NCBI RefSeq assembly: GCF_030268685.1
Contig: NZ_BSRQ01000010.1
Coordinates: 124,001 to 188,000, forward strand
Origin: Microtetraspora sp. NBRC 13810
GTDB lineage: Bacteria > Actinomycetota > Actinomycetes > Streptosporangiales > Streptosporangiaceae
Direction: 5' to 3'
Length of the DNA: 64,000 bases
This document shows, piece after piece, positions 16,654-20,775 of the stretch (positions are counted from its first letter, which is position 1; the number at the start of each line of letters is the position of its first letter). The position numbers and the translations under genes were made by a program. Under the pieces are notes generated by a model that saw only the letters and a list, made by a program, of their open reading frames with translations, ran no database searches and had not been told where the DNA came from.

Positions 16654-18375
<1,722 letters not shown>

Positions 18376-18423: not shown

Positions 18424-18528
18424 TCGCCTTCCTTACCTGGCCAAAATACGAAGTTTGACCCGGAATGGCCTGATAACGGCTCCTGGTGGGATGATATGGG
18501 AGTACGCCCTGACCGGGAGGAGACGAGT

Positions 18529-19164
18529 GTGGGGTTGCCCCCGGACGACGTCGTCATCGCGGCTCTGCGCGCGGGGGACGACGAGATGTTCGCGGCGCTT
18601 CTGGACACGTGGTCACGGGGCATGCTGCGGGTGGCCCGGACCTACGTGTCCACCAACGACTCCGCCGAGGAGGTCGTGCAGGACACCTGGCTCGCGGTGA
18701 TCAGCGGCATCGACGGCTTCGAGGGCCGCTCCTCGGTCAAGACCTGGGTCTACCGCATCCTGGTCAACGCGGCCAAGAAGCGGGGCCTCCGGGAGAGCCG
18801 CACCCTCCCCTGGAGCAGCGCCTTCGGCGCGTCGAACGCTCCGGTGGACGGTGCCTCGCCCTTCACCGGCCCGGACGACGCGCTCCCGGGACGCTGGAAG
18901 GAACTCCCCGCCGCGTGGCCCGCGCCCGAGGGGGAGGCGCTCGCCGCCGAGATGCGCGGCCAGATCGCCACCGCCCTCGCCGCGCTGCCGGCCCGGCAGC
19001 GGATCGTCATCACACTTCGTGACGTCGAGGGCTGCACACCGGCGGAAGTCTGCGCGATCCTGGATATCACCGCGGCCAACCAGCGGGTTCTGCTGCATCG
19101 CGCCCGTGCCTTCGTCCGCGGTCGGCTGGAAGACTATTTCGAGACGGTGAGGCGGTCGGCGTAG
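18529..19164 (+). CDS. ECF-type RNA polymerase sigma factor
   Basis: A 211-residue group 4 sigma factor. Region 2 (AALLDTWSRGMLRVARTYV, SAEEVVQDTWLAVI) binds core polymerase and the -10 element. Region 4 (ALAALPARQRIVITLRDVEG, PAEVCAILDI, NQRVLLHRAR) is the -35-binding helix-turn-helix. I prefer GTG 18529 because GGGAGGAG lies seven bases upstream; ATG 18496 in frame has no such site. The following small zinc-finger gene is its likely anti-sigma factor, and the egt operon begins about 380 bp downstream on the same strand. The regulon is unknown. Confidence 0.9.
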   Translation: MGLPPDDVVIAALRAGDDEMFAALLDTWSRGMLRVARTYVSTNDSAEEVVQDTWLAVISGIDGFEGRSSVKTWVYRILVNAAKKRGLRESRTLPWSSAFGASNAPVDGASPFTGPDDALPGRWKELPAAWPAPEGEALAAEMRGQIATALAALPARQRIVITLRDVEGCTPAEVCAILDITAANQRVLLHRARAFVRGRLEDYFETVRRSA

Positions 19165-19219
19165 TGAATCGGTTCAGCCCCCTGCAGGTAAGGCGGTCCG
19201 CATCGTGAAGCGGTTCAGC
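19147..19219 (+). repeat. 32-bp duplicated junction between sigma and anti-sigma genes
   Basis: Copy A (19147-19178) and copy B (19188-19219) match at 27 of 32 positions with a 41-bp period. Copy A holds the sigma stop TAG overlapping a GTG (TAGTG); copy B holds the anti-sigma GTG start. Between them runs a 14-codon frame from GTG 19164 to TGA 19206-19208, and that TGA overlaps the anti-sigma start codon (GTGA). Confidence 0.85.
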
Positions 19220-19444
19220 TGTGAAGAGCTGGTCGAACTCGTCACGGACTATCTCGACGACGGGCTCGACGACGCTGCGCGGCACCGCTTCGGCGACCAC
19301 CTGACCGACTGTGCCGCGTGCACCCGCTACCTCGCGCAGTACCGCACCACCGTCAAGGCGCTGGGCGACGCCCCGGGCGAGAACCTCTCGCCCGCCACCC
19401 GTGAGCGCCTGCTCACCGCGTTCCGCACCGCCCGGCGTACCTGA
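19205..19444 (+). CDS. small zinc-finger anti-sigma factor (zf-HC2)
   Basis: This 79-residue protein starts MKRFSCEELVELVTDYLDD and carries the ZAS zinc motif H-x3-C-x2-C in HLTDCAACTRYL, together with the early Cys6. It is essentially only the sigma-binding domain, lacking the usual transmembrane and extracellular parts. It is therefore probably a cytoplasmic, possibly redox-sensing, anti-sigma for the ECF factor just upstream. Zinc-coordinating anti-sigmas of this type (RsrA-like) release sigma on thiol oxidation; the link to the following ergothioneine genes is an inference. Start GTG 19205 lies in a duplicated junction. Confidence 0.85.
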   Translation: MKRFSCEELVELVTDYLDDGLDDAARHRFGDHLTDCAACTRYLAQYRTTVKALGDAPGENLSPATRERLLTAFRTARRT

Positions 19445-19505
19445 CGACCTGGCGAAAACTTTCTCGTATTCCCGCGCTTTCTCCTGTAACGCCGGAGGGC
19501 CTGCC

Positions 19506-19519
19506 GGATCTGTAGATCC
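19506..19519. promoter_or_regulatory. small palindrome upstream of egtA
   Basis: GGATCT-GT-AGATCC is a 14-bp inverted repeat 26 bp before the egtA start codon, within the 101-bp leader after the anti-sigma stop. It could be an operator for the egt operon; nothing further supports it. Confidence 0.35.
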
Positions 19520-19545
19520 GTGTACACCCGGCGGAGGAGGAAGAC

Positions 19546-20775
19546 ATGACGAGCCTGGCGACCGACGCCGCGCCGATCAGGGATGTCTCCGAGGTGGAGG
19601 ACTACGCCCGCCAGTGCTTCCGGGGCTCGACCGGCGACCAGGTGGGCGCCGAGCTGGAGTTCCTGGTGTTCGACCGCTCGGCCGTGGGCGTCCAGGTCCC
19701 CATCGCCAGGATCGCGGACGCGCTCCCCGCGCTGCCGGGCGGCAGCCGCGTCACCTTCGAGCCAGGCGGCCAGCTGGAGCTGTCCGGCCCCGCGGGGCCG
19801 CTGCCCGAGGCGGTCGCGGCCCTCGCCGGTGACGTGGCGCTGGCCCGCGCCGCGCTGGACGAGGCCGGCCTGGCGCTCGCCGGCGTCGGCCTGGACCCGG
19901 TACGGCCGGCCGTACGGCAGCTTCGCGAACCCAGGTACGAGGCGATGGCGGCGTTCCTCGGCATGCCGTTCGGACCGTTGATGATGTGTTCCACCGCGTC
20001 CATCCAGGTGAACGTGGACCTGGGCGTCCGGGGGGCCGAACGCTGGCGGCGGGCGAACCTGCTGGGCCCGATCCTCACCGCCGCGTTCGCCAACTCGCCG
20101 CTGAGCCTCGGCCGGCCGTGCGGGTGGATGTCCGGCCGGCAGGCGGTCTGGGAGGGCCTGGACCGGACCAGGACCGCCCCGGTGCCGGACGCGGGCGAGG
20201 CCGCCGATCCGGCCGCCGCCTGGGCGGAGTACCTGCTCGACGCCCGGCTCATGCTCGTCAGGGACTCCGCGGGCCGGTGCCGTACCGTCCGGGACGGCTC
20301 CACCTTCCGCGACTGGGTCACCGGGAACGGCGTTCCGCCCACCTTCGCCGACCTCGCCTACCACGCCACCACCCTCTTCCCGCCGGTACGGCCGCGCGGC
20401 TGGCTGGAGATCCGCTACCTCGACGCCCAGAGCCCGGCGGACTGGCCGGTGTGCGTGGCCGTGACGCACGCCCTCCTGGTCGACGACCGGGCGGCGGACG
20501 CGGCGCTCGCCGCGGCGGAGCCGTACCGGGACGGGTGGCGGGCGGCGGCCAGGCACGGCCTGGCCGACCGCGGGCTGCGGCGCGCCGCGGCGGTCTGCTT
20601 CCGCGCGGCCCTGGAGGCGCTGCCCCGGCTGGGCGCGGCCCCCGGCCTGACCGCCGCCGCGGCGGCGTACGCCGACCGGCACGTGACGACCGGCCGCCCG
20701 CCCGCGGCCGGTCTCCTCGAACTGGCGCGAGACCCGGGGTCCCGGCTGGCGTCCTGGCTCACCGAGACCCCCTGA
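19546..20775 (+). CDS. egtA: glutamate-cysteine ligase EgtA
   Basis: This 409-residue ATP-dependent ligase makes gamma-glutamylcysteine, the sulfur donor for ergothioneine. It belongs to the GCS2-like family: GDQVGAELEFLVFD at the N-terminus (ATP/metal Glu residues), FEPGGQLELSGP, and MMCSTASIQVNVDLG in the centre. ATG 19546 is preceded by GGAGGAGGAAG. It is the first gene of a complete egtABCDE cluster on this strand. The neighbours make the ergothioneine role secure; alone the family could also serve glutathione synthesis. Confidence 0.93.
   Translation: MTSLATDAAPIRDVSEVEDYARQCFRGSTGDQVGAELEFLVFDRSAVGVQVPIARIADALPALPGGSRVTFEPGGQLELSGPAGPLPEAVAALAGDVALARAALDEAGLALAGVGLDPVRPAVRQLREPRYEAMAAFLGMPFGPLMMCSTASIQVNVDLGVRGAERWRRANLLGPILTAAFANSPLSLGRPCGWMSGRQAVWEGLDRTRTAPVPDAGEAADPAAAWAEYLLDARLMLVRDSAGRCRTVRDGSTFRDWVTGNGVPPTFADLAYHATTLFPPVRPRGWLEIRYLDAQSPADWPVCVAVTHALLVDDRAADAALAAAEPYRDGWRAAARHGLADRGLRRAAAVCFRAALEALPRLGAAPGLTAAAAAYADRHVTTGRPPAAGLLELARDPGSRLASWLTETP

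Follow-up and report, generated by a model that had tools for sequence, protein, structure and literature searches.

A stress switch is off or leaky depending on the balance between its σ factor and anti-σ factor. In the Streptomyces sigR-rsrA pair, translational coupling of the two genes is incomplete, and the anti-σ factor is in excess partly by virtue of its own ribosome-binding site (PMC5472188). Termination-reinitiation weakens sharply as the gap between two genes widens: about 20 nt nearly abolishes it, and 38 nt reduces it by at least 80% (PMC10666635). Translation was up to 20-fold higher with a synthetic upstream nonsense ORF that contained an internal Shine-Dalgarno (SD) sequence and was placed in frame or frame-shifted (PMC13255528), and MIRU units insert small ORFs that are coupled to the downstream gene by −4 nt (PMC12548453). 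A mini-ORF located at a σ/anti-σ junction was not found in searches of open-licence literature by title and abstract opening.

Such a mini-ORF was the subject of a preliminary description of DNA from the soil actinomycete Microtetraspora sp. NBRC 13810 (NZ_BSRQ01000010.1:124,001-188,000; GCF_030268685.1), and this whole stretch of 64,000 nt is referred to as the window (L001 is its own locus). The upstream gene of the junction (Table 1) encodes an ECF σ factor with regions 2 and 4 (TIGR02937 sigma70-ECF, 75.2 bits versus a cut-off of 42.9). Its start is more likely GTG 18529 than ATG 18496; the former is preceded by the SD sequence GGGAGGAG, and in many relatives the alignment begins only at about residue 12-14 of the σ factor. 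Assignment of the anti-σ factor as an RsrA equivalog was rejected, as it scored 33.1 bits with TIGR03988, below the curated cut-off of 62.5. Downstream of the junction lies egtA, with egtC and egtD farther downstream, and egtA was also present in the fetched flank of named relatives (39 of 42 core loci, 8 of 38 others). The promoter-like motif in front of it (TGTAACG-N15-GRTCTRTAG) has a single site in the own genome, and a similar motif precedes egtA in most of the relatives shown; upstream of the σ gene, none was seen by eye in the relatives' stretches shown. The site before egtA is a likely target of this σ factor, which suggests an ECF σ factor dedicated to ergothioneine in the Streptosporangiaceae; the operon sits beside the ergothioneine genes that it probably controls. 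No σ70-like promoter or terminator was found in 18900-19600. On the other side of the σ gene, the window carries thiC (16744-18375), which was near the σ gene in none of the 80 named relatives (fetched flank). Many relatives have a second anti-σ-like zinc-finger match on the opposite strand directly after the anti-σ gene (e.g., G311:C1:4505730-4505903 and G315:C10:200935-201141); in the genome of the window no such match was reported.

Table 1. Features at and around the σ/anti-σ junction (positions in the window).
Feature	Position	Strand	Evidence
ECF σ factor gene, probable start GTG 18529	18496..19164	+	Pfam Sigma70_r2 8.8e-13, Sigma70_r4_2 8.8e-14
Repeat copy 1 (σ tail; SD-like TGAGGCGGT 19148-19156; σ stop; start box GTGAATCGGTTCA 19164-19176)	19146..19178	+	sequence, repeat finder
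Mini-ORF, 14 codons, VNRFSPLQVRRSAS, followed by stop	19164..19208	+	translation; recurs in relatives
Repeat copy 2 (SD TAAGGCGGT 19189-19197; start box GTGAAGCGGTTCA 19205-19217)	19187..19219	+	repeat finder, relatives' alignment
Anti-σ factor gene, 79 aa, zinc-finger zf-HC2, HxxxCxxC	19205..19444	+	Pfam zf-HC2 5.7e-9
ECF-type promoter-like site, TGTAACG-N15-GATCTGTAG, before egtA	19485..19515	+	sequence motif
egtA, first gene of ergothioneine cluster	19546..20775	+	TIGR03444 1.2e-115

The structural elements named in the preliminary description were all recovered: (i) a direct repeat with 27 of 32 positions identical (19147-19178 and 19188-19219) and a period of 41 nt, which a repeat finder returned as 33 nt, 85% and spacing 41; (ii) the σ stop TAG (19162-19164), sharing its G with GTG 19164-19166 (TAGTG, −1); (iii) a 14-codon frame opened by this GTG, whose TGA (19206-19208) overlaps the anti-σ start GTG (19205-19207; GTGA, −4); and (iv) a likeness between the beginnings of the mini-ORF and the anti-σ factor (VNRFS and VKRFS). 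Both overlaps are those of termination-reinitiation coupled pairs; the direct gap from the σ gene to the anti-σ gene is 40 nt. As in a leader cistron, the anti-σ SD sequence lies inside the mini-ORF, and the calculated SD duplex energies were −8.4 (copy 1) and −8.3 kcal/mol (copy 2). As the mini-ORF starts like the anti-σ factor and ends like the σ factor (VRRSA), it represents the junction read across two copies. When the window was simulated 30 times with a first-order Markov model, no repeat of equal quality arose within 15-120 nt. The real window gave 16 (offset, place) hits, which lay at the junction and in several other clusters; local repeats are thus not peculiar to the junction.

The arrangement was compared in a pool of 171 sequences (the window, 30 family loci, 80 loci from named genomes and 60 further stretches from genomes of the family). 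In 165 of them both genes lie on one strand, giving 117 distinct junctions (rows, which include close kin), 66 with and 51 without an anti-σ start of the GTGAAnCGnTTC (VKRF) type. Copy 1, defined as GTGAAnCGGTTCA with at most three mismatches or one insertion, was present in 61 of the 66 and absent from five (L003, L131, L148, L118, L062). In 33 rows it is abutting (at the σ stop or overlapping it), and in 28 it is distal. A two-box pattern, which misses members with mismatches, occurred in 41 of 345 genomes (39 at this junction; G009 and G208 elsewhere) with no control matches, and the box pair was found once in the own genome. A structure-aware element model (R1) likewise had one match in the own genome. 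Among 20 genomes tested with it, 13 had their best match at the junction (E 4e-10 or lower); weaker matches of the model, in the same and other genomes, include operator-like clusters. The sequence GTGAANCGGTTCAT was searched in 10 genomes and gave 10 sites in eight of them, eight at the junction.

Two relatives are informative about the origin of the repeat. In L010/L031, which is the row closest to the window on the tree, the mini-ORF VKRFTFDTIRRSAS consists of the start-box peptide fused to a copy of that σ factor's own tail (FDTVRRSA), the signature of a junction duplication. Thermocatellispora tengchongensis (L044, 3709-3800) has three start modules, with copy 1 lying 86 nt below the σ stop and frames of 16 and 14 codons chained from GTGA to GTGA. 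Judged by these sequence comparisons, the duplicated junction is real, old, inherited and recurrent, with the mini-ORF as one among several products of junction duplication. Junctions without the start box (outgroups) show a direct ATGA or GTGA overlap in 42 of 49 distinct cases. The preliminary description had held that relatives with direct overlap and no repeat but with the same expression would argue against a role of the mini-ORF; one half of this comparison is in hand, since relatives with direct overlap exist.

The preliminary description had further proposed that a re-initiating ribosome could step through all three frames, and the reading frame from copy 1 bears on this point. Among the 33 abutting rows, 18 run in frame into the anti-σ gene (17 plus L050, which was counted as in frame and whose contig ends without a stop) and 13 end at GTGA; L119 ends 2 nt short, and L061 has lost its start (GTT) and is in the uncoupled third frame. 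Hence all 32 abutting rows with an intact start either stop no more than 4 nt from the anti-σ start, as in the window (14 rows), or enter the anti-σ gene (18), which makes a ribosome relay plausible and recurrent. The distal rows comprise 12 in frame, seven ending at GTGA and nine uncoupled. On the tree, about five spacing changes were counted in abutting rows (without L061), always between 41 and 42 nt, and 10 in distal rows, with values of 37-41. A 14-codon frame that stops at GTGA reappears in several lineages, the 41-nt form being spread over several deep branches, while Streptosporangium has an in-frame 42-nt version. The proposal of a three-step relay is partly supported: in the abutting rows 32 of 33 frames are coupled, and the second SD sequence is strong. 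The data fit, but do not prove, a constraint on the frame where copy 1 adjoins the σ stop and none elsewhere. Only two changes between the abutting and the distal state were counted on the tree, and a test of independent pairs for association with a coupled frame had no power (two pairs, median p 1); a hand-counted Fisher test (0.026) is indicative only, and the row-level p of 0.001 was set aside as it ignores kinship.

The frames that enter the anti-σ gene could also mean that the anti-σ factor starts at copy 1 in these lineages, with a −1 overlap and an N-terminal extension, and that the 41-nt lineages, including the window, were frameshifted onto copy 2. The 18 abutting rows that are open from copy 1 without a stop agree with this, but we consider it very unlikely in view of the deep spread of the 41-nt form, of the codon pattern of the extension and of the SD sequence before copy 2, which is strong in in-frame rows (L037 excepted). 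In Streptosporangium, differences by codon position were 0.228/0.170/0.133 in the extension (12 rows), without a third-position excess, and 0.145/0.197/0.233 in the anti-σ body, which has one. SD energies before copy 2 lay between −7.4 and −8.5 kcal/mol for 65 rows, the remaining one of the 66 being L037 (−4.2). Before copy 1 they ranged from −5.7 to −8.4 in TAGTG rows, with the exception of L119 (−2.6); most TAG-GTG rows of Nonomuraea had weaker values, and many distal rows lay at about −2.

The mini-ORF of the 41-nt GTGA class (17 rows) differed by codon position at 0.276/0.252/0.308, i.e. without clear third-position bias, while an excess is present in σ tails and anti-σ bodies. A conserved peptide or small protein was therefore rejected; as neither the mini-ORF nor the extension shows the bias, nothing indicates their translation. 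Only the start box and the copy 2 SD sequence are conserved in this region. Conservation of the mini-ORF as an entity was likewise not supported, given the in-frame Streptosporangium version, the nine uncoupled distal rows and the five rows lacking copy 1. In L004, L011 and L012, whose junctions are those of Spongiactinospora L049, L035 and L039, copy 2 encodes VKRL, with the leucine TTA as anti-σ codon 4. TTA codons are rare in actinomycetes, and dependence on bldA is possible.

The rows lacking copy 1, the uncoupled distal rows and the lack of peptide conservation would also agree with an unselected remnant, a tandem duplication persisting or decaying by drift. A TAGTG junction (−1 overlap) duplicated with a period of 41 nt mechanically yields a frame ending at the second junction, so that the neat overlaps would arise automatically. 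This reading appears unlikely when the distal Nonomuraea clade is considered. Across its 24 distal rows, the 14-nt box of copy 1 had a mean column identity of 0.991 while the frame drifted, compared with 0.646 and 0.764 in the upstream and downstream spacers of copy 1, 0.875 in the σ tail and 0.926 in the anti-σ start. As the distal copy 1 is nearly invariant despite frame drift, coupling by reading frame is not the whole story, and away from the σ stop copy 1 was presumably retained for another reason, at the level of the nucleic acid. An internal promoter was rejected on the search of 18900-19600 for σ70-like promoters; the block ACAATnnGTGAAnCGGTTCAT of the distal clade has no constant spacing to a second element.

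A nucleic-acid function of the boxes is the main rival to the relay. The near-palindromic start boxes may pair in the RNA, with the anti-σ start in the stem and its SD sequence in the loop, and the hairpin would be opened by σ translation where copy 1 is adjacent, or by another signal. The frame would be irrelevant to such a hairpin, and the distal clade with its invariant box therefore fits. Expected copy 1:copy 2 pairs numbered 7.7 in abutting (n = 33) and 7.6 in distal rows (n = 28), versus 1.1 and 0.5 with shuffled copy 1; in distal rows the SD sequence was more open (0.62 v 0.47) and the start more closed (0.12 v 0.30), and standard pairs occupied 90.7% of 636 cells. However, the boxes are near-palindromic and duplicated, and copying a near-palindrome yields pairing automatically. 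Covariation did not support the hairpin, as both sides had changed in one of 12 pairs, and this one resulted from aligning a 1-nt insertion of Streptosporangium. Two internal mismatches persist in most rows. When a wider part of the window was folded, its stability did not exceed that of shuffled sequences (z 0.44) and the stem was absent from the best structure, and there was no Rfam match at the gathering threshold. On balance, the predicted hairpin is possible but doubtful. A combination, which we regard as unlikely, would have one 41-nt duplication produce both the relay mini-ORF and a ribosome-opened hairpin with its 5' arm on the σ stop, Nonomuraea keeping the hairpin half after loss of the relay.

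The boxes might alternatively act in the DNA. LacI-family operators have a central-CG palindrome, and a palindrome of this type is present in the start box, which might thus serve as an operator (TGAAnCGnTTCA) of a LacI-type regulator. Similar boxes are clustered at other places in several of these genomes, and the cluster in the own genome (L113, C2:418966-419003) has three close GTGAAnCGnTTCAC-like boxes between a LacI-type and an amidohydrolase-like gene, both named from sequence without a family scan. Yet the boxes in clusters are about 13-26 bp apart versus 41 at the junction, where spacing varies between 37 and 42 bp and the ends of copy 1 are asymmetric, and G162 and G184 carry no GTGAARCGGTTCA site besides the junction boxes, which renders an operator highly improbable. 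A TGAAnCGnTTCA regulon tied to the junction box was rejected, with seven sites in the own genome versus three in a reversed control and no sign of such a link.

Taken singly, relay coupling is the reading that suits the window best, at a probability somewhat short of even. The repeat, the overlaps, the L010/L031 signature, the frames of abutting rows, the L044 chain and the strength of the second SD sequence were counted in its favor; the uncoupled distal rows, the lack of third-position bias, the rows without copy 1 and the small number of events were counted against it. The junction was duplicated in tandem (41 nt) in an ancestral member of the Streptosporangiaceae, which created two ribosome-binding/start modules in series. 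As read from the DNA, module 1 has its start on the σ stop, and module 2 stands at the anti-σ start with its SD sequence freed from σ-coding constraint. A ribosome finishing the σ gene may re-initiate at module 1 and read a meaningless 14-codon leader, replaced by an in-frame extension in lineages one nucleotide longer. Translation of the leader would deliver the ribosome onto the anti-σ start, spanning a gap of 40 nt across which termination-reinitiation coupling would otherwise be largely lost, and fresh ribosomes may also load at the SD sequence within the leader. The reports on distance dependence, nonsense ORFs, MIRU and sigR-rsrA make such a relay reasonable and the 'fixed ratio' of the preliminary description doubtful. 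The likely effect would be that the anti-σ factor is held at or above the σ factor without an exact ratio; an excess of anti-σ factor seems as likely as a fixed ratio. The relatives provide a natural series in one orthologous operon (direct overlap, as in Herbidospora, relay mini-ORF, in-frame fusion, detached copy 1, loss of copy 1), by which the effect of coupling geometry on anti-σ excess becomes testable.

Bicistronic designs belong with the leader-cistron designs among the closest counterparts of the proposed junction relay. According to the excerpts of the respective papers, it compares with described systems as follows: (i) MIRU, e.g. in mycobacterial senX3-regX3 (PMC12548453, PMC4213456), are also short repeats that place a small ORF between two regulatory genes, with a −4 overlap of ORF and downstream start (here GTGA, 19205-19208) and possible tandem copies, but they measure 53-77 bp and are interspersed and apparently mobile, whereas here there is one local duplication of a host junction at a single locus of the own genome; a MIRU-like interspersed repeat was therefore rejected, as dispersed copies were not found; (ii) leader-cistron or nonsense uORF designs (PMC13255528) share a short non-functional ORF with an internal SD sequence that ends at or near the target start and operates in frame or frame-shifted, but they are synthetic and precede a single gene at its 5' end, whereas the present ORF is natural and lies between σ and anti-σ genes with its start on the σ stop; (iii) leader genes of Actinobacteria, for which a reinitiation boost was proposed (PMC4833913), are likewise short unconserved ORFs directly upstream of a gene, but at a preferred distance of 10-11 bp, whereas here the overlap is 4 nt and the ORF arose from a duplicated junction; (iv) Streptomyces sigR-rsrA (PMC5472188) has the same combination of ECF σ factor and zinc anti-σ factor, a start/stop overlap and a dedicated anti-σ ribosome-binding site, but its overlap is a direct ATGA and the excerpt describes no mini-ORF, whereas the window has one.
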